Of a DNA stretch of 49,271 nucleotides, positions 4,491 to 39,209 are shown piece after piece (within the stretch, counting starts at the first letter, position 1; each line of letters starts with the position of its first letter). Under the pieces are notes generated by a model that was not told the origin of the DNA, did no database searches, and saw only the letters and a program-made list of their open reading frames with translations. The position numbers and the translations under genes are program-made. Location of the stretch: positions 1-49,271 of the forward strand of contig SYLX01000112.1 in NCBI GenBank assembly GCA_005808505.1, written 5' to 3'. Source of the stretch: Bdellovibrionales bacterium (GTDB lineage Bacteria; Bdellovibrionota; Bdellovibrionia; Bdellovibrionales; JAMPXM01).

Positions 4491-6161
4491 TCAATGCTTT
4501 CGACTCTTCTTACCACGTGAAACTGGCTTACGCCCTGAACTTGCTTTCGCCTTCGGCATTGCAGATCTAGGCATGCTTGCACCTGCATTCACATAGCTTT
4601 CAACAATCGGACTACGTCGCGACGGCGATCTCGCCAAAATTCCGTAATAAGCAGAAAACGGGAGCTGCGGAACTTTTTCAACGCTGCCGGCTTCGCCCTC
4701 ATGATCTTCAAGTATCCGGATGCCGCCAGGGCCAATCTCAAACTCACGCGTTCGGTGATCCGGTCGGCTCCCGCGTGCCTTGGGCACGGTAATCGCGCGC
4801 CGTAGCTGAGTCGAGATTTCGACATAATTCAACAGGATAATATTGTCGACGATCGTCGAAGCTTTCAAATTTTCGCTAATCTGCGAGATTCCGAGAAGCT
4901 CGGGCGTTTCGTAATTGAAGTAAGCCGTGATCAAATTGTTTTTGAAGTAGGTCGCAAGTGCGTAAATAAAGTCCCGCGATTCGTTTTCGTCGGCGGCTTC
5001 ATAGGCAGCAAGCGAATCAATGACCACGAGATCAATCTTGTGTTTCTCGATTAGGTTCACGATGTCGTGGAAATGGACATCGAGTTCAAGCTCAAGAGGC
5101 GCGTCGTAATGGATAATAACATCACCGTCTTTGACTGCGCTAGCCAACTTAAAGCCCAGGCCTTCGGCGTTGCGGATGAGTTGAGCTTCATGCTCATCGA
5201 GGGTAACAAGAAGTCCTCGTCGACCCTTGCGAACACCTTCCATTAAAAACTGGACGCCGCTCACAGTTTTACCTGTACCCGAGATCCCCACCGCAAGCGT
5301 AATGGAACCTTCAAAGACTCCGCCGCCCACAAGCTGATCGAGTTCCTTGCTTCCGGTTGAGATTCTTTTTGTCGAAGTCGGTTGCTCGGTAATTTCACGA
5401 GGGCGAGCTTGAGGACGATTAAAGACTTGAACGCCGCTGCTACCCACAATACGCATTGTATGTTGCCCGGAGATGAACTCTTGGCCGCGCGATTTTGTTA
5501 CCTCGATGGACCTGTTCATACCTCGGCGATAGCTACGCTGTTTAAGGCTAATCACCGTATCGCAGACGAACTGCTCATGTCCCGTATCGGAACTCATCGG
5601 TCCGCCCGACAACGTCAATTCACGGGTGAGAACGGCCGTTACGTTCATCCGCTGAAGTCCTTCGACCAAAAGGTGAAGGCTATCCCGAAACGGTCGACCA
5701 TTGAACAGTTCACCGAAGACCTTCAGAGGAGTTAATCCGTCGATCACGAATCGTTTGGCGCCGATTCTCTTAATCTCATTTGCGAGAACTCCATCGTGCG
5801 AATTGAGCTCCTGAAGGATCACAAGCGGGCTGGTATAGATGACTTTCACTTTGCCAGATTCTTCGAGCGATTTGAAATCCCAGCCAAAACCAGCGGCGTC
5901 GCGAAGCAACTTTTGAGGTGAAAGCTCAAAGCTCACGACAAGTCCGGGTTCATCGTACTCTTTTGCTCCTCGATAGATGAACTCAAGCCCAAGCGTCGTC
6001 TTGCCTGTTCCCGGTGCACCTTCGACAAGGATGATGTTCCCTTTACGGACGCCGCCTTGAAGAATCGTATCAAGACCGGCGATTCCCGTAGGTACAGTGT
6101 CGTGGGTAATATCTGTAGCGCGAGACTCACGTTCGTTCCGCGACATTTTGTTAGAAGCCAT
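4491..6161 (-). CDS. KaiC-like double-domain RecA-type ATPase
   Basis: KaiC-family protein of ~556 residues with two RecA-like ATPase domains in tandem. Walker A motifs are GAPGTGKT in the first domain and GISGTGKT in the second; each domain has a Walker B stretch (FVIDGL, LVVIDSL). The segment KASTIVDNIILLNYVEI in the second domain aligns with the cyanobacterial KaiC autophosphorylation segment and keeps the adjacent Ser-Thr pair (about residues 435-436). A basic, disordered tail ends the protein. I chose the ATG at 6161 because AAGGACG precedes it; an in-frame ATG at 6182 has no ribosome site. No kaiA or kaiB is present. The downstream hybrid kinase is the likely partner. Confidence 0.92.
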   Translation of the reverse strand: MASNKMSRNERESRATDITHDTVPTGIAGLDTILQGGVRKGNIILVEGAPGTGKTTLGLEFIYRGAKEYDEPGLVVSFELSPQKLLRDAAGFGWDFKSLEESGKVKVIYTSPLVILQELNSHDGVLANEIKRIGAKRFVIDGLTPLKVFGELFNGRPFRDSLHLLVEGLQRMNVTAVLTRELTLSGGPMSSDTGHEQFVCDTVISLKQRSYRRGMNRSIEVTKSRGQEFISGQHTMRIVGSSGVQVFNRPQARPREITEQPTSTKRISTGSKELDQLVGGGVFEGSITLAVGISGTGKTVSGVQFLMEGVRKGRRGLLVTLDEHEAQLIRNAEGLGFKLASAVKDGDVIIHYDAPLELELDVHFHDIVNLIEKHKIDLVVIDSLAAYEAADENESRDFIYALATYFKNNLITAYFNYETPELLGISQISENLKASTIVDNIILLNYVEISTQLRRAITVPKARGSRPDHRTREFEIGPGGIRILEDHEGEAGSVEKVPQLPFSAYYGILARSPSRRSPIVESYVNAGASMPRSAMPKAKASSGRKPVSRGKKSRKH

Positions 6162-19626: not shown

Positions 19627-20000
19627 GAACTAAAGAGATTAAGATGTCGCCGTTTGCGACGAAAGTGATCGCGCTCGTCAAAAAGATTCCTCGAGGGAAA
19701 GTTGCGAGCTACGGACAAATCGCGCGCCTAGCAGGCAAGCCCCACGGTGCACGTGGTGTTGGTTGGATCCTTCATGCGTGCGCGGAAAGTCATTCTCTCC
19801 CCTGGCAGAGAGTTCTCAACTCCCAGGGGAAAATTTCGTTTCCGGTAAAAGCCAAAGAGCACGCCGAACAAAAGCGGTTGCTCAAAAAAGAAGGCGTAAC
19901 ATTCATCAGCCATTCGCAAGTGGATCTCGAGACCCATCTTTGGGAAAAGGACGTTAAGCCTTCTCGCCCGAAGCGCAATCAACCGCGCATGTTCAACTAA
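19623..20000 (+). CDS. Alkyltransferase-like (ATL) MGMT-family DNA-binding protein
   Basis: Protein of 125 residues with the DNA-binding domain of O6-alkylguanine-DNA alkyltransferases: IPRGKVASYGQIARLAGKP and RGVGWILHAC. The methyl-acceptor motif PCHR is replaced by PWQR (W61), so it cannot accept an alkyl group. ATL proteins instead bind O6-alkylguanine, flip the base and recruit nucleotide excision repair. The C-terminal extension is basic. Start at 19623 overlaps the upstream stop; an in-frame ATG at 19644 is also possible. It is the last gene before palindromic element A. Confidence 0.88.
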   Translation: MRTKEIKMSPFATKVIALVKKIPRGKVASYGQIARLAGKPHGARGVGWILHACAESHSLPWQRVLNSQGKISFPVKAKEHAEQKRLLKKEGVTFISHSQVDLETHLWEKDVKPSRPKRNQPRMFN

Positions 20001-20080
20001 AACCATTTCAGAAGATCAAAGCTCATTTGGTAGAGGTGTTCGCTCGGCGCTGGGACGGAAAGGGCTTGTCGCTCAGCTTT

Positions 20081-20214
20081 AACTGGCACACTTGTGTGCG
20101 GATTGATTGGATTTTTCACATAGCTAACTGCTCGTTGAGAACTGGAATTCTTAGAGTTCCAGTCCTGATCGCCTGGTGAAATTGGAATCTCACCCGCACG
20201 CAAGTGGGCCAGTT
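20081..20214. repeat. Palindromic intergenic element, copy A
   Basis: 134 bp, between the convergent ATL and aldehyde dehydrogenase genes. Left end AACTGGCACACTTGTG then TGCGGAT; the right end, read on the other strand, is AACTGGCCCACTTGCG then TGCGGGT. The interior holds a second small hairpin, ACTGGAA/TTCCAGT at about 20136-20161. It ends two bases from the dehydrogenase stop codon. Confidence 0.85.
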
Positions 20215-20216
20215 AG

Positions 20217-21629
20217 TTATTCGAGGGCAGCACCCGCCCCCACCGCCTCCGGCGTTTTCGTAGTCTTCGTGTTTCCGTGGTAAACCGTCTTTGTGTTTAC
20301 GAATTCACGGATGCCGAAAGATGAAAGCTCGCGGCCGTAGCCTGATTCCTTGATTCCGCCAAACGGAAGCCGAACATCGGATTTCACGAATGCATTGATG
20401 AACACACTTCCCGCTTCGATCTCGCGAGAGAGCCGATCGGCCTTGGCCTTGTCTTTTGTAAATAGCGCCGCACCCAATCCGAATGGCGAGCTGTTTGCCA
20501 AGCGAATTGCGTCTTTCTCATCTTCAGCCTCGATGATTGCAGCAACTGGCCCAAAGATCTCCTCATCGAAAGCTACCATTCCTGGCTTCACGCCTCCTAA
20601 TACGGTGGCTGGATAATATGCGCCGGGACCGGAGGGAATTTTACCTCCCACTAAAAGTTTTGCGCCTTGGGAGATCGACTTCTCTACTTGCTTGTGAACA
20701 TCGTCGCGCAGATCGACGCGAGCCATTGGTCCCATATCGGAAGTCGGCTCATTTGGATTTCCGAAACGGATTTTTTTGAACTTCTCAACGTACCGGCGCT
20801 CGAATTCCTCGCGCAGCTCGCGAACGACGATAAAGCGCTTGGCGGCGATACAGCTTTGCCCAGCGTTGATCAAGCGGCTCTGCACGCATGTATCAACTGC
20901 AAGATCGAGGTCGGCATCAACGAGGACGACGTATGCATCGCTTCCTCCGAGTTCGAGAACCGTCTTCTTCAAGACGGAACCCGCGGCTGTCGCGACGGAT
21001 TTTCCGGCGGGAGTGCTTCCTGTCAAAGTTACCGCCTTGATGACCGGATTGCGGATCACTTTCTCGACGCTACTCCCGGGAACGAGAATGGTCGTGAATA
21101 GTCCTTTCGGGAAACCAGCTTGAAGGAAGATGTCTTCGATTGCGAGCGCGCAACCCGAAACATTTGATGCATGTTTTAGTATTCCAGCGTTTCCGGCCAT
21201 TAATGCCGGAGCAGCGAAGCGGAACACTTGCCAGAATGGAAAGTTCCACGGCATCACCGCCAAGACGACGCCGAGGGGATCGAAAGCTACGTAGCTCTCC
21301 TTTGCGTCGCTTTCCACCGTCTGCGAACTCAAGAACTTATCTGCGTTGTCGGCATAGAAGTCGCAGCAGCTAGCGCATTTTTCGACTTCGGCTGCACCGT
21401 CACGCAGGATTTTTCCCATTTCATCGGCCATGAGCTGAGCAAGCTCATTCTTCCTTTCGCGCATCACTCGCGCGGCGTTCTTCATGAGCTTAGAGCGTTC
21501 GGCGAACTGAGTTTTCCGCCAGGCTTGGAAGGCTTGGTCCGCTTCTTTGAGCAAAATCGCGACGCGCTCATCGCTGAAGGGTTGGTAGTCGCGGATTTTT
21601 TGGCCGGTGTGGGGGTTGATGCTTTCCAT
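20217..21629 (-). CDS. NAD(P)-dependent succinate-semialdehyde dehydrogenase-like aldehyde dehydrogenase
   Basis: Cytosolic aldehyde dehydrogenase of 470 residues, of the short GabD/Sad type. Key residues: N129 in PWNFP, the cofactor-binding TGSTPAGKSVA, general base E226 in LELGG, and nucleophile C260 in NAGQSCIAAKR. Best guess is oxidation of succinic or a related semialdehyde. I chose the ATG at 21629 (MESINPHTG), since the family starts there; upstream residues would be encoded by palindromic element B. The only ribosome site, AGAGGAG 11 bases upstream, lies inside element B. Confidence 0.92.
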   Translation of the reverse strand: MESINPHTGQKIRDYQPFSDERVAILLKEADQAFQAWRKTQFAERSKLMKNAARVMRERKNELAQLMADEMGKILRDGAAEVEKCASCCDFYADNADKFLSSQTVESDAKESYVAFDPLGVVLAVMPWNFPFWQVFRFAAPALMAGNAGILKHASNVSGCALAIEDIFLQAGFPKGLFTTILVPGSSVEKVIRNPVIKAVTLTGSTPAGKSVATAAGSVLKKTVLELGGSDAYVVLVDADLDLAVDTCVQSRLINAGQSCIAAKRFIVVRELREEFERRYVEKFKKIRFGNPNEPTSDMGPMARVDLRDDVHKQVEKSISQGAKLLVGGKIPSGPGAYYPATVLGGVKPGMVAFDEEIFGPVAAIIEAEDEKDAIRLANSSPFGLGAALFTKDKAKADRLSREIEAGSVFINAFVKSDVRLPFGGIKESGYGRELSSFGIREFVNTKTVYHGNTKTTKTPEAVGAGAALE

Positions 21630-21630
21630 G

Positions 21631-21764
21631 AACTGGCACACTCCTCTGCGGATAAAAGTTCCATATCAGAAGGCAAATCGCCCGAAAACTTCGAGAATCT
21701 TACAATTCTGATGGATTTCCACAAGGCAATTACAGATAAGAATCCGCAACGAAGTGTGCCAGTT
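21631..21764. repeat. Palindromic intergenic element, copy B
   Basis: 134 bp filling nearly all of the 149-base gap between the divergent aldehyde dehydrogenase and slyX start codons. Ends: AACTGGCACACTCCTC then TGCGGAT on the left, and AACTGGCACACTTCGT then TGCGGAT from the right. The variable bases of the left end read as AGAGGAG towards the dehydrogenase. An inner arm pair ATCAGAA/TTCTGAT extends the symmetry. Confidence 0.88.
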
Positions 21765-21778
21765 AGGGGACCCGGAAG

Positions 21779-21979
21779 ATGGAAGATCAACGCCTCATCG
21801 ACGTCGAGACAAAATTAGCCCATCAAGAGTTCGCAATCGAGGAACTCCAGCAAGTGATCTATGAACAACAAGTAGCGATCGAAAAGCTGGAAAAGACATT
21901 AAAGAAGTTGAACGAACGCCTCGAAGGCGCATTCGGCACGCAGATCGGTCCTGGCAACGAAAAGCCGCCTCACTGGTGA
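21779..21979 (+). CDS. slyX: SlyX family protein
   Basis: Small 66-residue, highly charged coiled-coil protein: LIDVETKLAHQEFAIEEL then QQVIYEQQVAIEKLEKTL, the SlyX pattern, ending in a PPHW tail as in other SlyX proteins. Its role is unknown; SlyX often neighbours slyD in enterobacteria, but not here. Cytosolic. AGGGGA lies eight bases before the ATG, immediately outside element B, so transcription probably starts within element B. Confidence 0.85.
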   Translation: MEDQRLIDVETKLAHQEFAIEELQQVIYEQQVAIEKLEKTLKKLNERLEGAFGTQIGPGNEKPPHW

Positions 21980-22004
21980 TTTAGCGTCTCGAGGCAAGCA
22001 TCGC

Positions 22005-22874
22005 TCACGACTTGCTTGTCAGCCATCCAATAAGCTCGCGATCGAAGAGTTCACTTTCCTCAAGTTGAGGCGTGTGACTGCTCTCCTCGAAAACTCGCAC
22101 GGTAAGATCGTGAAAATGAGGGCGCACTCGGGCCCAGCTAGAGTACGGCGCAACAGAGTAATCAAAACGCCCAAGCGCCAGAAACACGGGAACTTTCATC
22201 TGCGCGAGTCCCTTCGTCACATCTATTTTCTTGAATGCATGACCCCAGAGATAATCCAGTGCAGGCATATTGTTATACACGTCCTGCCAAAGGGGAGATG
22301 CATCGTAGTTCCAATCCTTCCACATCCTCGCGCCGAGCCGGAGACAGAGGGAAATAAATTTCTTCTCGGGAGTACGCTCGATATCGGAAGCAAGTCGAGA
22401 GATCTCGCGATGAAATTTTTCTTTCCGTTCTGGACAGACGGCTTCCTGCCAATATTGTTCCGCAAGATGCATGTCCGCATCTGCGTGACTCGGTCCCGTT
22501 GCGATCATCACCACATGGGAAGCATTTGATGGATACCGCTTGGCATACTCTAGGGCCATGTATCCATGACCCGAATGTCCGACTATAACCGGACGTTGAA
22601 TTCCGAGATGTTGGCGAATGCGCTCGACATCTTCGAGAATCACCTCAAGCCGGTGATCGTCAGGTTTTGCATTCGCGGGAGCAGGAACGAAGCCGCGGTG
22701 ATCGATGAAAATAAGCTGAACCTTTGTTCGTAGATTTTGCGAGAAAGTTCTCGGATAGTAGATGGAGCTTCCTATCACGAGCAGAGGCTGCCCTTCTCCT
22801 TCGATCGAATAACCAAGTTTGTACCTGTCAGAATCGATTGCGCCGCGTTTTGGTTCCACTGATGTCTCCGACAC
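22005..22874 (-). CDS. Alpha/beta-fold hydrolase
   Basis: Cytosolic hydrolase of 289 residues. The nucleophile elbow is VIVGHSGHGYMALEY (GHSGHG, Ser nucleophile); the acid is probably the Asp in LALGRFDYSV and the base the His in ESSHTPQLEE. The oxyanion region GEGQPLLVIGSS is at the N-terminus. This is the general proline iminopeptidase/haloalkane dehalogenase-like family; substrate unknown. GTG start at 22874 has no clear ribosome site, so the true start is uncertain. It is convergent with slyX (25 bases), the one strand switch in this interval without a palindromic element. Confidence 0.85.
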   Translation of the reverse strand: MSETSVEPKRGAIDSDRYKLGYSIEGEGQPLLVIGSSIYYPRTFSQNLRTKVQLIFIDHRGFVPAPANAKPDDHRLEVILEDVERIRQHLGIQRPVIVGHSGHGYMALEYAKRYPSNASHVVMIATGPSHADADMHLAEQYWQEAVCPERKEKFHREISRLASDIERTPEKKFISLCLRLGARMWKDWNYDASPLWQDVYNNMPALDYLWGHAFKKIDVTKGLAQMKVPVFLALGRFDYSVAPYSSWARVRPHFHDLTVRVFEESSHTPQLEESELFDRELIGWLTSKS

Positions 22875-22886
22875 TTGATTGAGAGT

Positions 22887-23798
22887 CTAACCAGATCCTC
22901 TCTTGCTTTCGACATGTTTTTCGAGGCGTGCTCGAGCGCGATTGTGATTGACCGCGAAAATTGCGAGATGAAGCCGCAACCGCTCTTTGCGTTTGGAGAT
23001 GCACCACGACTTTCGCGCCAGTCGACTCATCCGCGCTCGCTGTTTGGCTAAGACATGATTGATGGAAAAGAGTGGGTCTTTTCCCTTCTTCAGCTCATCG
23101 AATCCGTGATCGCGTGCAGGACGAGCTTTATGCGTGCGGTGTGTGGCTTGCGGAAAAGCGCTCGTAATTTCGGACGGGTAATGTGGATGGTCATCCGACT
23201 CAATGACTGCTCTCTCCTCGATGAATGACTTCAGTTGCGAAAATAGCTTCCGTCGGCCGGCAGCTCTTCGATCTAGACGTCTACCGTATTTCTTGAGCGA
23301 TTTCTCTGCATTGCGTCCGCTCGCCGGAATCTCGGAAATTTCAAAGCCCAAGATGCGATGACTGTGCTTCTCGGCAACCATCAAAATAGAAAGTGGCTTG
23401 AGCTTGGTGGACTCAGCTGTTTCCTGTTCGTCGAATTGAACTTGCGCAACTTTCGGTAGGTTTTGATTCATCTCTTCGAGTTCACGTTCGGCATTTACTC
23501 CGAGGAAGACAAACTTTCTGACGACCGTTGTGCGACTGAGTCCGAGGGTGCGGGCGATGCCCCTGAGCGAGCAGCCTTCGATGTAGGCTTTCTCGACTCG
23601 ATGATTCATCGTGCGTTTCTTTTGGCGGTAACAAAGCGAGAGGGTCGCGTGCGAGAATCCGCGTTCGCAACTTCTGCAATGGAAGCGTTGGATCACGCGA
23701 CCGTCGGAGCGTCGGCGGAAATAACCGTCACGCAGAATCTTCCGTGGGCCGGACGTGGAATCGTTTCTTGATGAGCAGTGTGGGCAGCTGGGGTGCAT
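22887..23798 (-). CDS. IS1-like transposase family protein, solitary
   Basis: Protein of ~303 residues. N-terminal zinc ribbon (C5-x2-C8 and C41-x2-C44), a helix-turn-helix (CSLRGIARTLGLSRTTVVRKFVF) and a DDE-like region with VQFDEQE, a later VIESDDHPHY, then the IS1-type C-terminal RMSRLARKSWCISKRKERL. The third acidic residue expected in IS1-like catalytic regions is not obvious: INHVLAKQR stands where related enzymes have a Glu. No terminal inverted repeats or target duplication flank it, so it does not look like a complete insertion sequence. Element F begins about 38 bases upstream of the ATG. An in-frame TTG at 23816 is a possible earlier start. Confidence 0.78.
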   Translation of the reverse strand: MHPSCPHCSSRNDSTSGPRKILRDGYFRRRSDGRVIQRFHCRSCERGFSHATLSLCYRQKKRTMNHRVEKAYIEGCSLRGIARTLGLSRTTVVRKFVFLGVNAERELEEMNQNLPKVAQVQFDEQETAESTKLKPLSILMVAEKHSHRILGFEISEIPASGRNAEKSLKKYGRRLDRRAAGRRKLFSQLKSFIEERAVIESDDHPHYPSEITSAFPQATHRTHKARPARDHGFDELKKGKDPLFSINHVLAKQRARMSRLARKSWCISKRKERLRLHLAIFAVNHNRARARLEKHVESKRGSG

Positions 23799-23835
23799 GG
23801 GTGGGGGATTGAGCAAGTATAAGGCCAGCTTCCCT

Positions 23836-23966
23836 ACTGGGTCACTTGCCTGCGGCTACTCCATGTCTCTTCACTGGTGAATGCCGCTCCCAAACACAAA
23901 ATCTCAAGAATTTGACGATCCGCTCCTCGTAGAAGATGATTTTATCCGCAACCAAGTGGCCCAGTT
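23836..23966. repeat. Palindromic intergenic element, copy F (most diverged)
   Basis: 131 bp between the divergent transposase and vanX-like genes. Left end ACTGGGTCACTTGCC then TGCGGCT; from the right, AACTGGGCCACTTGGT then TGCGGAT. The interior AAAATCTCAAGAATTTGA resembles the same position in copy D (AAAATTCTCGGAAATTGA). It stops directly before the GGAGG ribosome site of the dipeptidase gene. Confidence 0.75.
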
Positions 23967-23976
23967 GGAGGAATGG

Positions 23977-24684
23977 ATGAGATTTCTTAAATCAGTTTCG
24001 CTTACCGCCGCCACCATCGCCAGCTCAGTCACTGCTGGTGCCGAGAGTCGTCCGGCTGATATCGTCGATGTTAAATCTGTCGATGATTCCATTCTCGTGA
24101 ACATGATGTACAACACCGACGAAAATTTTGTCGGAGCGAAGATCGAAGGCTACAGAGCCAACATTTGTTTTCTCACCAGACAAGCGGCGCAAGCGCTGAA
24201 GAACGCCCAATCCCGCTTAAAGAAAAGAGCCGAAGAGAAAAACACGAAAATGGTTCTACTTGCGCGTGATTGCTACAGGCCCCGAAAGGCCGTACAGCAT
24301 TTTGTCCGGTGGGCGAACGATCCTTCTGCAACCGAGAAAAAGGAAACATACTATCCGGAGCTTCCGAAAGACCGACTCATCAAGGATGGATATATTGCTT
24401 CGGTTTCCGGACACAGCCGCGCCTCCACCGTCGATATCACGATCGCTGAGCTGCAAGATGACGGAAATTACAAAGAAGTTGATATGGGCACGATCGTGGA
24501 TTACTTCGGCGAAAAGTCTCACACCGATTCGCGCGCGATTACGAAGGATCAGGCGGCTTCTCGCAAGCTCTTAAAATCGGTATTAGCTCCAGAATTTAAA
24601 AACTACTCGAAGGAGTGGTGGCATTACTCGTTAGCGCAAGAGCCGTATCCGAATACGGGTTTTGATTTCGACGTAGTCCCCTAA
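23977..24684 (+). CDS. Secreted D-alanyl-D-alanine dipeptidase (VanX/DdpX-like, peptidase M15D)
   Basis: Zinc metallopeptidase of 235 residues with an N-terminal signal peptide (MRFLKSVSLTAATIASSVTA). VanX motifs are complete: DCYRP (R101, transition-state Arg), SGHSRASTVD with zinc ligands H146 and D153, and EWWHY with catalytic E213 and zinc ligand H216. MGTIVDYFGEKSH is also typical. It cuts D-Ala-D-Ala dipeptides, probably in the periplasm for murein recycling or use of prey wall. I chose the ATG at 23977: GGAGG precedes it and a signal peptide begins there; an earlier in-frame ATG at 23881 lies inside element F. The TAA stop is formed by element C. No other van genes are present. Confidence 0.93.
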   Translation: MRFLKSVSLTAATIASSVTAGAESRPADIVDVKSVDDSILVNMMYNTDENFVGAKIEGYRANICFLTRQAAQALKNAQSRLKKRAEEKNTKMVLLARDCYRPRKAVQHFVRWANDPSATEKKETYYPELPKDRLIKDGYIASVSGHSRASTVDITIAELQDDGNYKEVDMGTIVDYFGEKSHTDSRAITKDQAASRKLLKSVLAPEFKNYSKEWWHYSLAQEPYPNTGFDFDVVP

Positions 24685-24815
24685 CTGGCACACAATGTTG
24701 CGGATACATCGTCCGTAACGCCTTGTACTCGGCGGCGTTTTCAGCAAATTTTTGAATTTTCTGAGGATTCTGCAAGGGTACTAGGACTTTTCATCCGCAT
24801 CCAAGTGTGCCAGTT
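24683..24815. repeat. Palindromic intergenic element, copy C
   Basis: 133 bp between the convergent vanX-like and helicase genes. Ends: AACTGGCACACAATGT then TGCGGAT on the left, AACTGGCACACTTGGA then TGCGGAT from the right. Its first bases complete the dipeptidase TAA stop (24682-24684). Its right arm is translated as the last residues, LAHLDADEKS, of the helicase. Confidence 0.88.
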
Positions 24816-27180
24816 GCCAGAAGGCGGAGAGATCCCCCAAAATCCCCGCCGAAACCAGTTCGCGCGGGCTCTCTGCGTACCAGTCGCTCGGCATTGACTT
24901 TGAGTAGCTCTTCTCCAGAAACCGATTGTCCATCAGCACGATGATGCCCTTGTCGGTCTCCGAGCGAATCACGCGTCCCGCGGCTTGCACAGCCTTCGCC
25001 ATCGCGGGGAACGTGTAAGCGTAGTCGAAGCCCGCAGCGTAGTTCTGCTGATAGTAATCGCGTCGCTGCTCTTGCTCGAGATCGAAGTTCGGAAGCGGCG
25101 GTCCCACCACGAACGCGCCAATCACCATGTCCCCAGGGTAATCCACACCTTCCGAGAAAACTCCGCCCTGCACCGCAAAGACAACATGCGCGGCGGATCG
25201 GTCCGTCAGACGATCCAGCACCGCCTGAATTTCCTCCCGCCTCATCGTGCGCTCTTGCTTCAGCGTTTCAAAGCCCTCGGGCGCGCGGAACTTCCCGCAA
25301 ACGCGCTCCATAAACTCAAAGCTCGGGAAGAAGACAAGATAGTTCCCACGCTTCAACGAAACGATGCGCTCAATCGCGTCCGCGATTCGCGGAGCATTTC
25401 GCTCGCGGTCCGAGTACTTCGAAGAAATTTGCGGAATGATGAGCAGCTTGCGGTGCATTTTCGGAAAAGGAGACACGAACTCCGCCGTTTTTAGCTCCTC
25501 AGCCACAAGACCCGTGAGCCGACTGTAATACTCAAATGGCTTGAGTGTCGCGGAGAACGCAACGACTTGTGAGTACTCGCGGTAAGCTTCCTTGAGCATC
25601 TCGGATGCATCACAACAAGTGATCTTCACCGTCGCAGGATTCGGGTGGTAAGTCGTGAAAAATTCCTTTCGGCCACTGCTTACGAATTCAAGAGCGCCCG
25701 TGAATTCCGACCAGTAGAAGCAGAGTCGAAGAACGACATCCCGTGGCTGGATCTCAACTTCAGAATTCAAATAGGAAGACAAAAAAGATTTGAGTTCGAG
25801 ATCCTGAGTAAGAAAAGCTTCAACGGGAGGCTTGATCCGACTCGGCTTTGTTAGTCCAGCTGGAGCGCAAGTCTTTACGACATCGATGCATTCATCGAGA
25901 AGGTCCTGCGCTTCTTTCTGAAATTTCAAAGGAAGATTCTTTAAATCCGTGCGCATCTTCTCAAGCGCAACGGTCGAGAGCGTCGGCGAATAATGATCCA
26001 TCGCACGCGATGGGAGATTATGAGCCTCATCGATGACTAAATTCGGTTTTCCATCTTGATCAAGTCCACAACTTGCTAGGCGTCCGAACCCGGACTTCGG
26101 AGCAAAAACATAGTTGTAATCACAAATAGCAACGTCGGCTTCTTGAGCAGCATCGAGCTGAAGCTCAAAAGGACAAACCTGATACTCCTCCCCGAGATTG
26201 CGGAAAACTTTTTTCGTGAGGCTGCGCTTTTTTGAAAGCTGCTCGAGAATCTTGTTCTCCGCAACCTTCGTATAATGATCTTTTGCATACTCGCAGTAAT
26301 CGGGATTGCAGAGCGGTTCGTTTTTAAAACAGATCTTGCTCTTCGCCGTAATTGTCAGCGCCTTAATGTTGGCACCAGTTTCCTGCAGACGATCGACAGC
26401 ATCTTCCGCAACGCTGTGCTGACTGTTCTTCGGAGTGATGTAGACAACACGCTGGCCGCGTCCTAGCGCCTCGCGCAGTGTGGGATAGAGAACGCCAACC
26501 GTTTTTCCTAAGCCCGTTGGAGCTTGGACCATCATAGGTTTCTTTTCGCTCATCCCCTCTTCAATTGTTCGGATGAGCTCCACCTGCCCAGAGCGCGGCT
26601 TGTTGAATGGAAACTGAAGCGAAGCTGAAGCTTTTCTGCGGCGCTTGGCTCTTTTTTCCGCAAGCTTTGCTTCCTGAACCAGTTCATCGAGACGACGATC
26701 CAGCCACTGCTCATACTCCAAGATGTTGAGCTCAAGATTGAGTTCCATTGTTTCACCGTTTCGGGTGGAGACGAGGAGCAGTGTCAACGCAGGGTTCTTG
26801 CGATGATTGAGCCAATGGAAATAACCATAGGTGAGGAGTTGAAGGCAGTAAGGATGCTCGTAGCGTCCTTCTTTCAATCGTCTTGAGAGTTCGTAGATAT
26901 TGAAGCTCGTTTTAATTTCTTCAATGCGGGGGTGAAGTTCGTTGAAGAAGCCGTCCATCCTTCCGGAGACTTCGAACTGATATCCACCTCTGGAGAATGA
27001 AGAAGTCGTGACCACTTCCGCTTGATAGTTGGGATTCTCCTTTGCTCGTTCGGCTTGGAACTTTTCGTGAATTTCGATTCCAATTTGCGAACCACGGCCG
27101 AAGCCGGAGAAAACATCGATGCTTCCTCTACGCGGAGCCGGTAACGCAAAATCTGTGACACTGACAAAAACTTTCTTCAT
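24781..27180 (-). CDS. Fusion of PD-(D/E)XK nuclease domain and XPD/DinG-type Fe-S helicase
   Basis: Protein of 799 residues. N-terminal ~190: RecB/Cas4-like nuclease with H38, GRMDG (D76) and IEEIK (E88, K90). Then an SF2 XPD/DinG-type helicase: Walker A APTGLGKT (K226), four cysteines for an Fe-S cluster (C284, C291, C296, C336), DEAH box VIDEAH (384-387) and motif VI QAAGRVIR near residue 735. It should unwind 5'-tailed or branched DNA and cut one strand, in repair. Its start overlaps the exonuclease stop by one base (TGATG), so the two are coupled. The last ten residues come from palindromic element C. Confidence 0.92.
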   Translation of the reverse strand: MKKVFVSVTDFALPAPRRGSIDVFSGFGRGSQIGIEIHEKFQAERAKENPNYQAEVVTTSSFSRGGYQFEVSGRMDGFFNELHPRIEEIKTSFNIYELSRRLKEGRYEHPYCLQLLTYGYFHWLNHRKNPALTLLLVSTRNGETMELNLELNILEYEQWLDRRLDELVQEAKLAEKRAKRRRKASASLQFPFNKPRSGQVELIRTIEEGMSEKKPMMVQAPTGLGKTVGVLYPTLREALGRGQRVVYITPKNSQHSVAEDAVDRLQETGANIKALTITAKSKICFKNEPLCNPDYCEYAKDHYTKVAENKILEQLSKKRSLTKKVFRNLGEEYQVCPFELQLDAAQEADVAICDYNYVFAPKSGFGRLASCGLDQDGKPNLVIDEAHNLPSRAMDHYSPTLSTVALEKMRTDLKNLPLKFQKEAQDLLDECIDVVKTCAPAGLTKPSRIKPPVEAFLTQDLELKSFLSSYLNSEVEIQPRDVVLRLCFYWSEFTGALEFVSSGRKEFFTTYHPNPATVKITCCDASEMLKEAYREYSQVVAFSATLKPFEYYSRLTGLVAEELKTAEFVSPFPKMHRKLLIIPQISSKYSDRERNAPRIADAIERIVSLKRGNYLVFFPSFEFMERVCGKFRAPEGFETLKQERTMRREEIQAVLDRLTDRSAAHVVFAVQGGVFSEGVDYPGDMVIGAFVVGPPLPNFDLEQEQRRDYYQQNYAAGFDYAYTFPAMAKAVQAAGRVIRSETDKGIIVLMDNRFLEKSYSKSMPSDWYAESPRELVSAGILGDLSAFWQLAHLDADEKS

Positions 27181-28184
27181 CAGAAGAAAGCCAATTGGTC
27201 GGGTTGTTTGGGCGTAAGCTCAGTGTCGGGGAAAGCTTGAAGGCCGAGCGTGCGGAGATGCTTGACGAGAGCACCGTTTCCACGGTGTTGAACGTAGACT
27301 GTTTTGGCTCCGGTTTCTATTACGGTGCGAACGAGATCGTTCCAGTCCGCGTGATCGGACATCACAAAGCCTCTGTCGTATCCGCCCCGGAAGCCGTGAG
27401 AGCCTTTTGCCATCCATCCGGATGCAAAGGCAGTTTCGTATCTTCCGCCGAGGACTTGTCCCTGATCCGATCTCAAAAATGACTGAGGAACGAGCAGAAG
27501 CTCACCGCGCAGTGACTCCCCTACTCGTAGAGTACTTAAGCAGCGAGTCGACGCGAGGTTTATCCCTTGGGCACGGTAGCAGTCGTTCAACGCTGTCGCG
27601 GCCGGGTGGCAGTAAACTTCTTTTGTTGCGTGCGGATGAAGAACACCAAGCACTCGCTGCGCTTTTCCGAGGGAGTACGCAAAGAGTACGCTGTTGACTC
27701 CGCGGGCGGCATTAGTGTTCCACCAAGTGTGGATTTGTTTTCCCAGATCGGCGTCTTTTTTCCAAGCGTAGCCGGGAGTGCCGAAAGTGGCTTCGGTTAC
27801 GAAGACGTCGCATTTCACGGACTCGAATGGCTCGCACGTCGGATCGGGATCGCGCTTGTAGTCGCCGGACGCGACCCAAACTTGGCCGGCATACTCAAGG
27901 CGAACTTGAGCTGAGCCGAGAATGTGACCGGCCGGATGAAGCGAGATCTCGACGCCGCCGAGGCGGAGAACTTCGCCGAAGGCGAGGCCGCGGACGGTGA
28001 TGTTTTTTCCGAGCCGGGTTTTGAGAAGCGAAACACCGCTCGTCGCGCAGTAGTACTGCCGACTTCCGCGGCGGGCGTGATCGCTGTGGGCGTGCGTGAC
28101 CACCGCGTGGTCCACGGCACCGCTGGGATCGATGTAGAAGTTGCCGGCCCGGCAATAAAGGCCCTTGGGAGTAAGCTCGAGCAT
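27180..28184 (-). CDS. MBL-fold ligase-associated-type DNA exonuclease
   Basis: Metallo-beta-lactamase-fold nuclease of 334 residues, similar to the ligase-associated DNA exonuclease family (TIGR04122, SNM1-like). Zinc motif HAHSDH (H31, H33, D35, H36), PAGHILGSAQV with the next His ligand, GDYKRD with the bridging Asp, and MSDHADW near the C-terminus are all present. In many bacteria this exonuclease sits with an ATP-dependent ligase and an Lhr-like helicase; here the partner is the nuclease-helicase fusion. ATG at 28184 is the family start; the frame is open upstream through element D, but those residues do not fit. No clear ribosome site. Confidence 0.92.
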   Translation of the reverse strand: MLELTPKGLYCRAGNFYIDPSGAVDHAVVTHAHSDHARRGSRQYYCATSGVSLLKTRLGKNITVRGLAFGEVLRLGGVEISLHPAGHILGSAQVRLEYAGQVWVASGDYKRDPDPTCEPFESVKCDVFVTEATFGTPGYAWKKDADLGKQIHTWWNTNAARGVNSVLFAYSLGKAQRVLGVLHPHATKEVYCHPAATALNDCYRAQGINLASTRCLSTLRVGESLRGELLLVPQSFLRSDQGQVLGGRYETAFASGWMAKGSHGFRGGYDRGFVMSDHADWNDLVRTVIETGAKTVYVQHRGNGALVKHLRTLGLQAFPDTELTPKQPDQLAFF

Positions 28185-28226
28185 AAGTGGTGAGACTTTA
28201 GCGGAGAGTTTTGCTCTCAACAACCT

Positions 28227-28358
28227 AACTGGCTCACTTCGCTGCGGATGACTTACTGACTTACGAGGGGAAATTCCCAAAGAAAATAAAATTCTCGGAA
28301 ATTGAGGTCGATCTTCCTTCTGAAAATGATTATCCATCCGCAATCAAGTGGGCCAGTT
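28227..28358. repeat. Palindromic intergenic element, copy D
   Basis: 132 bp between the divergent exonuclease and small membrane-protein genes. Ends: AACTGGCTCACTTCGC then TGCGGAT on the left, AACTGGCCCACTTGAT then TGCGGAT from the right. The right flank TTAGGGGA is shared with copy B, and its complement with copy C. Any promoter for the exonuclease/helicase operon must lie in or very near it. Confidence 0.88.
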
Positions 28359-28403
28359 AGGGGATTGCATGGTAAAATCCCCGAAAACCAAGGGGTTAGT
28401 TCG

Positions 28404-28619
28404 ATGGAAATGTGGTTGTGGTTTGCTGCAGGGGGCGCCTTCATCGGAGCGATTATTGTCTACGTTGCCTTCATGATCTTCCTGCCGGAATGGGTCGGGA
28501 TTACCGGCAAGACTGCCATCGAAAATGAAAAGAGCCATCGCAGCGGCGAAATTGCTAAGGACATTGATCTGCTTGAACGGATGCAGGAGCCGGATGGCAA
28601 GAAACGCGATCCCTCTTAA
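28404..28619 (+). CDS. Small single-helix membrane protein of unknown function
   Basis: 71-residue protein with one N-terminal membrane helix (WFAAGGAFIGAIIVYVAFMIF) and a charged cytoplasmic or periplasmic tail ending KRDPS. I do not recognise the family. ATG at 28404 has AAGGGG eight bases upstream. It lies between palindromic copies D and E, and its TAA stop (28617-28619) is made by the first bases of copy E. Confidence 0.65.
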   Translation: MEMWLWFAAGGAFIGAIIVYVAFMIFLPEWVGITGKTAIENEKSHRSGEIAKDIDLLERMQEPDGKKRDPS

Positions 28620-28751
28620 CTGGCACACTTGCGTGCGGATGCAATTGCGAATTCTCCTAGTTAGATTCCCGAATTTCTTGGAAATTTTGAATTTAAATAG
28701 GCTTCTTCCCTTGTGAACTGGCACTCGCATCCGCAGCGAAGTGGGCCAGTT
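28618..28751. repeat. Palindromic intergenic element, copy E
   Basis: 134 bp between the convergent small membrane-protein and FUSC genes. Ends: AACTGGCACACTTGCG then TGCGGAT, and from the right AACTGGCCCACTTCGC then TGCGGAT. An extra end-like AACTGGC at 28716 pairs with the right terminus over 36 bases. The left end completes the membrane-protein stop; the right arm is translated as the last residues of the FUSC protein (QLAHFAADAS). Confidence 0.87.
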
Positions 28752-30834
28752 GGGAGACTGAGGACACCATCCCCCCCAGCAACCTCGCCGGCCCCGAGTC
28801 CGCGCTTGCGGCCGCGGGCGCCTTGAGCTCCGGCGCGCCGAGCTGCGCGGCCGCGGCCGGCGTCCGCAGCGCCTCGGCGATCCGGCTCATGCGCTCCGCC
28901 AGCTCGCTCTTCAGGAGCGATAGCTGAACTTCGTCATCGCCCGCCGCTTCTCCAGCTGGAGCCGGCGCCGTCGCGAGGTGCCGCAGAAAGTGCGCCAGCA
29001 ACGCAGCGTCGTGCAAGATCAACGGCAGGTCCCCCTGCTTCATGATCGGAATCCGCGACGTAATCGGCGCAGCCGCCAGCCGCAATGCCTGCAGATCGCG
29101 ATCCACGCGTCGCAGACGCCGCACGATCTCCATCCGCGAAAGTGAAGCCTGCGCCGGCGGCCGCAGCGGTAACTCCCTCAAAACTTGGCTCATCGTCGCG
29201 AGCAGATCCGCCAGCGCTTTTCTCACCGTCGCGCGAGTCGACGTAGGCAAAACGTAAGCGCTCACCAGCGCGCCAATTACCGCGCCGATGGCCGTCTCCT
29301 CCAGCCGCAAAACCAAGATGTGCAAGCTAAATTGCCCAATCACATCAAACAAGATCGCAATCATCGCGGAGAACAAAGTCGCCGTCCAAAACCCAAAGGC
29401 GAGGCGCGCGCCGTAAACACCAAAGAACACGCACGCAATCACCAACGCCCACTCAACACTCTTGTGTCCCGAAAGCACGTAAGCGACCACGAAGCCCGTG
29501 GCGAGTCCGCCCGCCGTGCCAACAACCCGCGTGAACGCTCGCTGCAAAGTCTCCCCGCGCGAGGCACCCGCGAAGATAAGAAACGCCGTCAACGAAGCCC
29601 AATACCAGCGCTCAGGAGAAATCGCGTAGCCGACCATCGATGCAAGCGCCGTCGCCAACGTCGCCTGAATCGCTTGGCGCGTGGCCGGATGCAGGCTCAA
29701 ACTCGCTGCGGGAGCACCGCCTGCGTTCGCCACGACTCCTAGGCCCGGCGCAGCCATCTCGATCGCGGCTTCCGATTCCACACCGGCCGCCGCATCTTGA
29801 CCCCTTGAGCATGTACGTACCGTTTCCAACGCTGCCGTTAAACACTTCGCAAAATCACGTACGCGAGGAGACACAGAATCAAAGCCCGCATCAAAGTTCC
29901 CCTGCGAACGGACAACCGATGCTGCTCGCCGAGCAAGCAGACCGAGTTCGTGAAGCGTTTGCACATCCAGCCCACGACCGCGAACCAGTTCCTCACTTCG
30001 AACCAAGATCTTGCGGAACGCGAGCTCCTGCTCAAAAAGCGACATCACGATCTTTTCGGCCTTCGCCCTCACCGCATTCGAATCCGATGAATTAAGAAAT
30101 TGCTCAATCAGCAGACTCGACTCATTCACCCGAACAACCGCTCGGCGGAGATGTAAACGATGCTCCTCAAGCATCGCCTCCGATTGGTCGCCGACTCCTG
30201 CGAGTTCTTCAAAAGCCACAGATAACCGATCAAGGACACGCGCAAGTCGAACGTGAAACGAACGCAAATGAAGCATCAACAGTCGCTGCGGACGATCCGC
30301 GAAAACCCAAAAGCGAATCGCGTAAGAGATCGCGCACGAGATGAGTAGCGCATTCAGCGCCCAGGGAATCGCTGACGCGTGAATCGGAAAAAACAGCGGC
30401 GCGAAGTACGACATGAACGTGATGATCCCGAGCGCGAGCCAACGCAGACCAAACCGTCGTATGTAGACGATGGCGAACGTCACCACGAGAAACGCGATGA
30501 GCCGCGCCTCTTGCCAAGGCGAAAGTAGAATCGACAACGTCACCGCTAAGCCGGCTGGAATGGGCAGAATCAACATCGTGATCTGCTGCTGACGGCGAGT
30601 CGCATCCGCGATCACGATCGCGCTCATCTGCGCGATGATGACGCCGAAAAAAGCGAGCGTCGGTGGCTGATTGAAATGCGAGACCACGATCGAGATCGCG
30701 AAGAAGGATAGAATGACCGAAGTGATTCCGCGAAGCGCGGTACGGAAGTAAGTGTAGCCGGGATCAAACGCGAGGATCGATTCTCGCCAGGTTTCAGCCC
30801 AGAACTCGGATCGGGTATTGGTGGCGCGGACCAT
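28693..30834 (-). CDS. FUSC-family membrane transporter (YccS/fusaric-acid-resistance-like)
   Basis: Inner-membrane protein of 713 residues with two blocks of ~6 transmembrane helices (about 35-185 and 395-545), each followed by a soluble helical region (about 190-370 and 545-700). This layout and GxxxxG-rich helices such as GTAGGLATGFVVAYVL match the FUSC/YccS/aromatic-acid exporter superfamily; the substrate is unknown. ATG at 30834 is preceded by GTGGAG. The C-terminal third (bases ~28,760-29,200) is visibly richer in G/C and in Ala codons than its surroundings, and the very end is encoded by palindromic element E. Confidence 0.88.
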   Translation of the reverse strand: MVRATNTRSEFWAETWRESILAFDPGYTYFRTALRGITSVILSFFAISIVVSHFNQPPTLAFFGVIIAQMSAIVIADATRRQQQITMLILPIPAGLAVTLSILLSPWQEARLIAFLVVTFAIVYIRRFGLRWLALGIITFMSYFAPLFFPIHASAIPWALNALLISCAISYAIRFWVFADRPQRLLMLHLRSFHVRLARVLDRLSVAFEELAGVGDQSEAMLEEHRLHLRRAVVRVNESSLLIEQFLNSSDSNAVRAKAEKIVMSLFEQELAFRKILVRSEELVRGRGLDVQTLHELGLLARRAASVVRSQGNFDAGFDSVSPRVRDFAKCLTAALETVRTCSRGQDAAAGVESEAAIEMAAPGLGVVANAGGAPAASLSLHPATRQAIQATLATALASMVGYAISPERWYWASLTAFLIFAGASRGETLQRAFTRVVGTAGGLATGFVVAYVLSGHKSVEWALVIACVFFGVYGARLAFGFWTATLFSAMIAILFDVIGQFSLHILVLRLEETAIGAVIGALVSAYVLPTSTRATVRKALADLLATMSQVLRELPLRPPAQASLSRMEIVRRLRRVDRDLQALRLAAAPITSRIPIMKQGDLPLILHDAALLAHFLRHLATAPAPAGEAAGDDEVQLSLLKSELAERMSRIAEALRTPAAAAQLGAPELKAPAAASADSGPARLLGGMVSSVSQLAHFAADASASSQGKKPI

Positions 30835-36029: not shown

Positions 36030-37442
36030 TCAGTGAACCACACTGAGCTTCAAAGCCTTTAGGAGCTTTTTGCGCGACCAGTTCGCTTGAAGAACTTCAG
36101 AGTGGCTCCAAGTCAGGTCGCGTGCAGCGGTCATGTAACCGGTATGACGATCCATCTGCTCCGAGAGCGAGCCGTTTGCGTAAGCGTGGTACTGGATGCG
36201 CTTCATGAGCTCGTCGCCTTCGTGAAAGTGGGCGCGAGCTTTATCAACATGCCCTTCGTTGATCAGCTCGAGTGCCGCGCGATAATGACCGTTCGCAAAA
36301 GCGGCGGTGATCAAAACCCAAGGATTGCCGCCTTGGAAACCCATGCCGTCATATTTGTCTTCAGGATAACGGCCGATGCCTACGCCCGGGATGCCCGCCA
36401 CCTTGTTAATCGGATAAAGAGCACGGAAGCTTTCAGTCAAAGCTTTCAGCGTCGACTGAACGCGCGCATCGCTAAACGGCATGAGGCCGGTGTGCAGAAT
36501 CGCGAGAATCGTTTGAGCATCGAGTCCACTGTGTTTGTAATCGAGGCCACCGCTCCAACCGAGGTGCGGAACAAAGACTTGCTTCGACGAATCCCAATGC
36601 TTCGCGATTTCGGCATCAAGAGCGTTTGCCTGTGAGCGGTACCACTGTGCCGCCCCACCATCGCCTAAACGGGCCGCGAGCTTTGCGCCTTCGATGAGAG
36701 AGCGCTTCTGAGCCATGCGCGTGTAGAAGTGATCGCCGTAAACTTCTTCCCAGATATCACAGTTTTTTGCTGTCCAGTGATGCGAAGTGAATTCCAGATC
36801 AGCCTTGATCACCGTGTTTGTCGGAATTGCGCTGTCGTAGAGTTCCGCACGAACGAATTCTTCTTGTCCGTTGTCGAGTAGGTAGTTTGCCAAACGAGTT
36901 AGAACTACGGCTCTGAGGGCAGGTCCGTCATTCTGCGGGCGGCACCAATCGCCATTGAAGGCCGAACCATCGTAGTTGAACTTCGGTTCGCCCATTCCAC
37001 TTTTTGTGGGCGTCATCTGGTTCTGGCGAGAGAAACGCGCAAAGTCGATCAATCGATCTAAGTAAACTTGCGCCTCATCACCTTGGGCGTGCACGTAGAG
37101 TTCGAAAACAGTATCCATCGTGAGGGCGGCATCGCGGACCCAGTGGAAGTAATAGTTAGGATGATTACGCTCAGGAGACGCGACCACCACACCTGGAGCA
37201 GCATCAGAAGGCGAAACATTGGCCATCAATTTCTGCGCGGAGATAACCTCCTGCTGACTCAGCCATTGATCAAGCGAGGCTACGGCCGCAGGCTTTAATG
37301 GAGTTGCTGCGGAACTCGAACCGAATGCGATAGAAGTGTTCAAGCTGATCGCAAGCGCCAGCGCTCCGATCATCTTCGTAGTACTCATCTTCGAAGCGAG
37401 TGATTTCCGAGCGAGAAAAGACAAAGTCGCAAACGTAGCCAT
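36030..37442 (-). CDS. Secreted glycoside hydrolase family 15 glucoamylase-like enzyme (copy 1)
   Basis: Exported ~470-residue GH15 glucan 1,4-alpha-glucosidase-like protein, releasing glucose from alpha-1,4-glucan ends. Substrate-binding HWVRDAALTMD, general acid in CDIWEEVYG and the base in SLSEQMDRHTGY followed by TAARDLTWSH are present. I chose the ATG at 37442, preceded by GGAGGGG; the signal sequence is then ~43 residues, with its core in MIGALALAISLNTSIAFG. A shorter start at 37388 is possible. A close relative is encoded at 37782-39209; shared blocks are NxxPxGAxPGxxxASP, HWVRD and RPQNDGPALRA. Confidence 0.9.
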   Translation of the reverse strand: MATFATLSFLARKSLASKMSTTKMIGALALAISLNTSIAFGSSSAATPLKPAAVASLDQWLSQQEVISAQKLMANVSPSDAAPGVVVASPERNHPNYYFHWVRDAALTMDTVFELYVHAQGDEAQVYLDRLIDFARFSRQNQMTPTKSGMGEPKFNYDGSAFNGDWCRPQNDGPALRAVVLTRLANYLLDNGQEEFVRAELYDSAIPTNTVIKADLEFTSHHWTAKNCDIWEEVYGDHFYTRMAQKRSLIEGAKLAARLGDGGAAQWYRSQANALDAEIAKHWDSSKQVFVPHLGWSGGLDYKHSGLDAQTILAILHTGLMPFSDARVQSTLKALTESFRALYPINKVAGIPGVGIGRYPEDKYDGMGFQGGNPWVLITAAFANGHYRAALELINEGHVDKARAHFHEGDELMKRIQYHAYANGSLSEQMDRHTGYMTAARDLTWSHSEVLQANWSRKKLLKALKLSVVH

Positions 37443-37781: not shown

Positions 37782-39209
37782 TTACCGACGAAGCTGATCA
37801 AATTCTCTTTTCGCCGACGAAGCACGAAGAAAGCTCGCGTAGCTCCACGTAAGATCGTAGGCCGAAATCATGAAACCTGTGTCGCGATGATACTGCTCCG
37901 AAAAGCTTCCATCTTCGTTGACGTGTAAACGGATTCGCTTCATGAAGCCGTCTGCCTTTTCTTTAAGCGACGCGATGATGAATTCACGCAAACTTTCGTT
38001 ATTAGCGTCTGCGAGATCAACTCCAGCGCGGATGGAGACTCCGTCTTTCAAACGAGAAAAGAAACGGGCCTGTTCGCGATCCAACACAAATGTGCGTGCG
38101 GTCTGAAGGCGAGCGGCAAGCTTGTAGTGAAGTTCAGCGAATGCAGCCGTCGTGAGAACCCAAGGATTACCTCCGAAGTAGTAATCCTCAGAATAACGGC
38201 CAATCGCCGTTCCAACTGACGTGTCGCGATTGACTCCGTAGAGGACGCTAAATGTTTGTTCAAGCTTTTCCGCAGTCGCGAGAATGCGGCCATCCGTGAT
38301 GCTAAGGGGGCCCGTCGACTGTTCAACGGCAAGAGCAGCGAGAATGACGGATGTATCGAGCTCCGTGGGTTTTTGATGGTCAGGCCCAGCATCGGAGTCG
38401 AGAGTTGCGAGGTAATGCCCGCGACTTTCACTCCAGTGCTTCATCAATTCCGATTCCAAAGCTTTTGCTTGAACGAGATAGAAGTTCGCCGCACCTGGAT
38501 CGTTCATCCGGTTCGCGAGTTTCGCGCCTTCCTTCAAAGCTGCAAGCTGTACGGCGCGCGTGAAAAAGTGCTGACCCCAAATTTCTTCCCAGAGATCGAT
38601 GCACTTCTCTCTCCAATGATGCGCGACGTACTCAAGATCAGTTTTGATCACGGTGTCCGCCGGAATTTTTGCTGAGTACAATTCGCGCTCAACGTAGGCG
38701 CGATCCCCTTTCGCCAGCAGGTTCTGCGCAAACCGAGTCAAAACAAGAGCACGTAACGCTGGCCCATCGTTCTGCGGGCGACCCCACGGTTCTGTATTCA
38801 CGGTACCGTCAACGTTGAATCGCGGTTCACCTAGGTTGTGAGCCGCTTTAGCCTGATTATCACGCGAGTAAGTTACGAACTGCATGAGAGTCGTCAGCGA
38901 CTCTAGTGACTTCTGCTCCTCGTAAAGTCCGAGAATGGATTGCATGACAAGCGCTCCGTCACGCACCCAGTAATAATAGTAGTTCGGATTCTCTTTTGAC
39001 GGTGACGCGAGGATGGTACCTGGAACCGCTCCCGCAGGAGAAATGTTCCGATACATGCGTTCCTTGGAAGTAACTGCTTGTGATTCGACCCAGCCGTCGA
39101 AATTCGCCGACGAAGCCGATGCCGAAGTTGTCCATGTGCTGAGTGCAAGTGTGCCCGTGCAGAGAGCAGTGAAAAGAGCCTTGAAAGCAAACGAGAAATT
39201 CATTCTCAT
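37782..39209 (-). CDS. Secreted glycoside hydrolase family 15 glucoamylase-like enzyme (copy 2)
   Basis: Exported 475-residue GH15 protein, a paralogue of the neighbour at 36030. A signal peptide covers ~1-33 (LFTALCTGTLALSTWTTSASA). Catalytic region marks are YWVRDGALVMQ, the general acid in IDLWEEIWG and the base in GSFSEQYHRDTGFM. ATG at 39209 follows GGAGGAAATCGGC. Together with copy 1 and the GH13 gene it forms an alpha-glucan-degrading set on the minus strand, though gaps of ~200-340 bases suggest separate promoters. Confidence 0.9.
   Translation of the reverse strand: MRMNFSFAFKALFTALCTGTLALSTWTTSASASSANFDGWVESQAVTSKERMYRNISPAGAVPGTILASPSKENPNYYYYWVRDGALVMQSILGLYEEQKSLESLTTLMQFVTYSRDNQAKAAHNLGEPRFNVDGTVNTEPWGRPQNDGPALRALVLTRFAQNLLAKGDRAYVERELYSAKIPADTVIKTDLEYVAHHWREKCIDLWEEIWGQHFFTRAVQLAALKEGAKLANRMNDPGAANFYLVQAKALESELMKHWSESRGHYLATLDSDAGPDHQKPTELDTSVILAALAVEQSTGPLSITDGRILATAEKLEQTFSVLYGVNRDTSVGTAIGRYSEDYYFGGNPWVLTTAAFAELHYKLAARLQTARTFVLDREQARFFSRLKDGVSIRAGVDLADANNESLREFIIASLKEKADGFMKRIRLHVNEDGSFSEQYHRDTGFMISAYDLTWSYASFLRASSAKREFDQLRR

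Follow-up and report, generated by a model that had tools for sequence, protein, structure and literature searches.

Short palindromes in a Bdellovibrionales genome are probably MITE-like derivatives of an IS1-like family whose copies mostly sit at stop codons

We examined six palindromes, A to F, that lie between genes at positions 20,081 to 28,751 of contig SYLX01000112.1 from a Bdellovibrionales bacterium (assembly GCA_005808505.1); the whole 49,271-nucleotide stretch is called the window below. We conclude, with a probability of about 0.72, that the six are non-autonomous derivatives of an IS1-like family of insertion sequences (IS) whose copies mostly sit at stop codons, and that they resemble miniature inverted-repeat transposable elements (MITEs). 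Because the ends of the palindromes are the same as those of full-length IS, they are likely to be the non-coding offspring of that family. The conclusion draws on these shared ends, on a similar three-block left end, on the dispersal of the palindromes through the genome, on a transposase homologue with its D-D-E residues inside the cluster, and on the placement of the parent IS at stop codons. We write MITE-like rather than MITE because no target duplication was found at the 28 palindromes of the genome or at its eight full-length IS.

Dispersal of the palindromes and their shared ends

The assembly that contains the window (5.05 Mb in 269 contigs) was scanned with a pattern for paired ends. 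At least 28 paired palindromes were found on 12 contigs, and none were found with the reversed pattern as a control. A sequence-only reading of the window had located the six copies and had noted that a dispersed family would be unsupported if the genome held no others; with 28 copies on 12 contigs, we conclude that they are one cluster of a dispersed family. Its suggestion of a mobilised, spread non-coding element is well supported by this dispersal and by the ends held in common with full-length IS of the genome. The copies fall into two length classes, 132-136 bp (23 copies) and 146-147 bp (5 copies). The window cluster holds six palindromes and a cluster on contig C96 holds 11, which is 17 of the 28 in the genome, and in 5000 draws of uniform placement at most four fell within 8.7 kb and at most five within 27.9 kb. 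All six window copies have TGCGG at both ends. On C96, TGGGT was found at one or both ends in 11 of 11 copies, and at both ends in seven.

Eight distinct elements of the same genome have both ends. These elements are about 1.1 kb long and have palindrome-type ends around an IS1-like DDE transposase gene. On contigs C148 and C150, end matches about 1.1 kb apart enclose a transposase open reading frame (ORF), which is intact on C150 and has a broken frame on C148, and the C150 transposase has 19 matches in the genome, fragments included. The parent transposase family was present in 28 of 58 relatives. We also collected 80 named loci, the best 80 of 391 relatives in an alignment-based scan; 61 of these are titled as Bdellovibrio-, Bacteriovorax- or Oligoflexia-type, and the remainder are nine "Proteobacteria bacterium", eight Granulosicoccus and two Fibrobacteria. 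By database name, a family transposase is also found in Pseudobdellovibrio exovorus JSS.

Across the 46 halves of the short class, conservation falls on positions 1-24, on a box spanning 39-44 and, more weakly, on an AT-rich core close to the middle of the element. The same terminal inverted repeat (TIR) is present at the left ends of full-length IS, which also have a box resembling that at 39-44 and, shortly before the start codon, a third block. Because left IS ends have the same TIR and similar blocks, the short palindrome looks like two left ends placed head to head. By the same kind of sequence comparison, the 146-147-bp class appears to join a left end to a right end. As a separate observation, locus L020 (C268) has two right-type ends 78 bp apart, near 5013 and 5091, after one transposase gene, possibly representing a tandem end.

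Full-length copies at stop codons

Ends were placed for 126 elements, 56 from 64 loci (own genome included) and 70 from the 80 named loci. These gave 109 distinct left junctions; 99 of them had flanks of 700 bp or more to left and right, and for 98 a gene was called on either side. An insertion was scored as near a stop when an ORF of 150 codons or more had its stop codon within -6 to +10 bp of an element end. By this test, 85 of 99 insertions were near a stop on one or both sides, and 30 on both, compared with 4.3% in an intergenic control. In a narrower range of -2 to +10 bp, 78 of the 99 were near a stop (26 on both sides), and when the stop was required to be wholly outside the element, 55 were near (16 on both sides). 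The nearest ORFs were convergent for 67 of 98 IS, co-directional for 28 and divergent for three; in the same loci, convergent pairs made up 126 of 532 neighbour pairs. Taken together, these counts indicate a target preference for convergent gene ends, one that they do not separate from selection. The eight Granulosicoccus copies (L246, L248, L251-L255 and L258) are related elements outside Bdellovibrionota; six of the eight were near a stop, one on both sides, and no target duplication was found in them. Some IS inverted repeats in L180-L259 also have inward stops (AACTGA at -6, TAG near -14), so that a gene interrupted by the element would be terminated immediately.

For the 21 insertions with an exact target duplication, empty sites were rebuilt by a script that removed the element and one duplicate, and ORFs of at least 80 codons were considered. 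An ORF stop lay inside the duplication or at most 4 bp away in 21 of 21 sites, and 16 had convergent ORFs in range on both sides. In six of these 16 two-sided sites the stops overlapped by exactly 4 bp (YTAR), and two of the six apparently represent one junction shared by two related genomes.

The stop-codon position of the same mobile family could also result from selection alone, with harmful insertions lost and a transposase that has no preference. Between convergent genes of pneumococcus, IS and small repeats are over-represented, an enrichment that has been read as tolerance (PMC3049150), and the convergent spacers in our IS loci are short (median 34.5 bp, n = 114). Within convergent spacers, however, insertions were near a stop in 64 of 67 cases, where 13.6-47.9% would be expected, and near a stop on both sides in 27 of 67, where 0.8-9.9% would be expected. 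In addition, the 4-bp stop overlap occurred at 6/16 two-sided sites versus 7/114 convergent pairs. We therefore consider it rather unlikely that selection acted alone.

The six palindromes of the window

Palindrome A, 20081..20214, no strand, 134 bp, convergent neighbours
Palindrome B, 21631..21764, no strand, 134 bp, divergent neighbours
Palindrome F, 23835..23966, no strand, 132 bp, directly upstream of the transposase gene, divergent neighbours
Palindrome C, 24683..24815, no strand, 133 bp, convergent neighbours
Palindrome D, 28227..28358, no strand, 132 bp, divergent neighbours
Palindrome E, 28618..28751, no strand, 134 bp, convergent neighbours

Twelve end-motif matches with at most three mismatches (shuffled sequence, mean 0.02) place the six copies where the sequence-only reading had put them, and no end-motif match was found in the window beyond these copies. 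One boundary moved: with ends of equal length, F begins at 23835 rather than 23836 and is 132 bp long, and its left tip is degenerate (TACTGGG). The orientations within the window were also as described, with A, C and E between convergent and B, D and F between divergent genes. Gene neighbours of all 28 palindromes were taken from a crude home-made caller with uncurated ORFs, to which two transposase genes were added manually and from which one overlapping call was dropped. By these calls, 12 palindromes lie between co-directional genes, nine between divergent and seven between convergent genes. Thus, placement always at strand switches and never between co-directional genes, as had been stated for the six copies, describes the window and fails for the genome. 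Stop-facing ends were at -2 to +4 bp in 17 of 26 cases, and the stop at a palindrome tip was often a host T, TA or TG completed by the tip.

At A, C and E, the stop of one neighbouring gene lies against a tip or extends into it (gaps +2, -2 and -2). The stop codon of an aldehyde dehydrogenase (ALDH) gene (20217-20219, minus strand) lies 2 bp beyond the right tip of A, that of an M15 peptidase gene (24682-24684) shares 2 bp with the left tip of C, and the stop codon at 28617-28619 shares 2 bp with the left tip of E. The remaining three stop-facing ends are at +80, -35 and -59, with a helicase frame extending 35 bp into C and a YccS-like frame 59 bp into E. The ALDH start codon is 1 bp beyond the left tip of B.

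When the window copies were compared with each other, their ends were 75-92% alike, their interiors scarcely exceeded shuffled sequence (mean 0.54 vs 0.49), and their outer flanks were likewise near it (0.59 vs 0.55). Because interiors and flanks are scarcely above shuffled sequence, we conclude that the six are not copies of one duplicated locus, a possibility that the sequence-only reading had raised. Among the fetched relatives, G003 keeps the helicase gene of the window together with its exonuclease neighbour; beside helicase and ALDH homologues, none of the remaining window neighbours was found, except that G001 has a weak match, at 27% identity, close to a fragment of ALDH. These relatives therefore gave no empty site for the six copies.

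Another explanation is that the palindromes are host regulatory structures, either bidirectional terminators or RNA hairpins, kept for their function. The convergent copies A, C and E have better predicted folds than versions of them with shuffled interiors (z -2.2 to -3.3), and a terminator-like stem was seen by eye at the right-type end in three of the five copies of the 146-147-bp class. In contrast, B, D and F folded no better than with shuffled interiors, and no Rfam family matched in the window at the gathering score (two weak, chance-like matches fell in 20000-28900). Covariation between halves, which the sequence-only reading had put forward as a check, was absent at the inner variable columns of the 23 short copies, where halves of one element were no more alike than permuted partners (0.300 vs 0.310). 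The three-base spacer at positions 14-16 was borderline (0.507 vs 0.394, 5.2% of permutations). Because the variable columns match no better than permuted partners, a hairpin is not visibly maintained, and the symmetry is more likely that of binding sites. We regard a regulatory origin as improbable. We give still less credence, and very little in all, to attC-like sites of an integron cassette array, which would share with the palindromes their length, a variable centre, stops at some ends and one or a few genes between copies. The draft genome has no integron integrase above the cut-off (seven sub-cut-off matches), the ends belong to a DDE IS, and the copies are spread over 12 contigs.

Outside both tips, the 28 palindromes are flanked by sequence that is rich in C, read towards the tip, at about -3 to -9; this was not apparent by eye in the IS flanks of relatives. 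Hairpin targeting of the IS1272 type is a known type of target choice in which the flanks pair with each other. We rejected hairpin or terminator targeting for the 28 palindromes, whose flanks paired no better with their own than with permuted partners.

Two other features of the window were recorded. At 24781-28184, the Rad3/DinG-type helicase gene adjoins an exonuclease that scores above the cut-off of TIGR04122 (ligase-associated DNA damage response exonuclease), and relative G003 also retains these two genes as a pair. A 112-nt direct repeat (36717-36828 and 38556-38667) is 71% identical and possibly represents paralogous genes.

Transposase genes in the two clusters

IS1-like DDE transposase gene, 22887-23798, minus strand, 303 aa from ATG, D-D-E positions kept
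Transposase leader, 23799..23834, minus strand, TGGCC..CTTGCTC block, similar to the leader that full-length IS have in their left ends

In the window, palindrome F lies 36 bp upstream of the transposase start, and on C96 a palindrome lies 35 bp upstream; in each case the TGGCC block follows. A weak promoter-like match covers 23816-23845. The window protein is 55% identical to the C150 protein, the C96 protein 47%, and the two are 44% identical to each other. Each gene is alone of its lineage in the genome and lies within its own palindrome cluster. Three proteins of the family scored 43.3, 54.8 and 52.3 bits against the IS1 profile NF033558 of NCBIfam, which did not reach its cut-off of 100. 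A model on 21 sequences (pLDDT 83.9) matches the ISCth4 transposase and retroviral integrases, and the D, D and E positions are invariant in 21 of 21 aligned sequences, the window protein included. On this modelling, the family transposase is predicted to have a DDE catalytic fold. The genome has four Y1 matches, none on the window contig (C87) or C96.

An inverted-repeat search downstream of the window transposase gene found no right end, and the best candidate of a motif search did not exceed what shuffled sequence gave; the C96 gene likewise yielded no right end. By analogy, both loci resemble systems of repetitive extragenic palindromic (REP) elements and RAYTs with a different enzyme. The likeness to REP/BIME families that had been suggested thus holds for the arrangement, a transposase gene within a palindrome cluster, but not for the enzyme, which is DDE and not Y1.

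We considered whether the window and C96 transposases have been domesticated, having lost self-mobility and been kept for acting on palindromes, as RAYTs are with REPINs. Both genes have a palindrome 35-36 bp upstream, kept D-D-E positions and no right end found, and they lie in the two clusters that hold 17/28 copies, with TGGGT ends on C96 and TGCGG ends in the window. However, these are two cases in one genome, the right end may have been lost recently, and both end variants recur elsewhere, TGCGG on further contigs and TGGGT on C239. Transposase loci L090, L115 and L147 likewise gave no ends, as did 10 of the 80 loci of the larger set, several of them at contig ends. Because some other homologues are also without ends found, a right end not found is in itself not unique to the window and C96. 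Domestication of this kind appears doubtful to us.

Weighing the evidence

Several observations weigh against our conclusion that the palindromes derive from an IS family sitting at stop codons. The ORF test puts a stop near 14/28 palindromes and on both sides of 2/28, which is weaker than for the IS. Nine of the 28 are between divergent genes, and B, D and F, at divergent starts, would need ordinary intergenic insertion or later rearrangement. No target duplication was found at the 28 palindromes (7-10 bp, at most one mismatch, offsets 0-3), nor at 7 bp or more at the eight own-genome IS; among 109 insertions, 21 showed exact duplications of 8 bp or more (lengths 9-12) and none was found in the other 88. 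Ten of the 16 two-sided sites are off the 4-bp overlap (-59 to +58), and some near stops come from the TIR itself (the -6 and -14 classes). A control with another IS family in the same order, DDE_Tnp_1, failed to give a comparison: of 30 loci, four had near-perfect end repeats, and the one locus of these four with long flanks had no near stop. Finally, the end motif, which the sequence-only reading had suggested seeking in related genomes, gave a palindrome in one of 58 relatives, a chance-like match that is not family-like. A general-form palindrome search found one each in 6 of 58 relatives, and a stricter form gave 2/139; palindromes on C348 of G001 and C27 of G087 are family-like by eye.

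Comparison with known systems also shows differences. Like bacterial IS MITEs, the palindromes are short (132-147 bp), non-coding, and have ends common to full-length IS in the genome, but they are without a target duplication found, the short-class halves are both left-end-like, and they form local clusters around a transposase gene without a right end. The IS1 family (NF033558), whose target duplications are 8-9 bp, has in common with the present family a weak profile match, a DDE core, and 9-12 bp duplications in some relatives' copies. In contrast to IS1, the present family scores 43-55 bits against a cut-off of 100, has one ORF of about 300 aa and AACTGG tips, and sits at stop codons. REPINs and RAYTs (PMC3116915) are similar in that palindromes accompany a transposase gene seemingly unable to move itself; here, the enzyme is DDE rather than Y1, the palindromes are 132-147 bp with TIRs and number 28, and a related mobile IS is present in the genome. 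IS5 duplicates YTAR (PMC10359306), and YTAR is found at some targets of the present family, whereas the transposase family is another one, the duplications are 9-12 bp, and the bias is to convergent stops. Pneumococcal BOX, RUP and SPRITE repeats are likewise enriched between convergent genes, and BOX gives stop codons to gene ends, but so sharp a both-sided fit to stops is not described for them in the accessible part of PMC3049150. Open-licence literature on stop-codon or convergent-gene IS targeting, YTAR, and Bdellovibrio IS or MITEs yielded no title on this family.

A potential model is that the transposase binds the end block and two inner blocks and cuts at the AACTGG tips. It would then paste the element into YTAR-like sites, preferably at junctions of two convergent genes whose stops adjoin or overlap. 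Each gene would keep a stop, one within the target duplication and the other rebuilt by the tip (T joined to AA, or TG to A). The window copies may have been placed by short-range mobilisation near the transposase gene without a right end, giving a REPtron-like cluster. A stronger version, in which the family has true specificity for convergent overlapping or abutting stops (YTAR) and this genome has two immobile REPtron-like transposases, is tentative, and we put it somewhat below an even chance. The same holds for its further part, that such a DDE family would occur in predatory-bacteria lineages and some other phyla, with insertion breaking neither gene.

Safe-site transposons usually use one conserved gene (such as Tn7) or RNA guides. 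If the stronger version is true, a small IS with a general aim for tail-to-tail gene ends would be a new solution to harmless insertion, and could be useful for placing DNA between genes without breaking them. Further, clusters of palindromes surrounding transposase genes that have no right end would represent a second, independent origin of a REP/RAYT-like arrangement.

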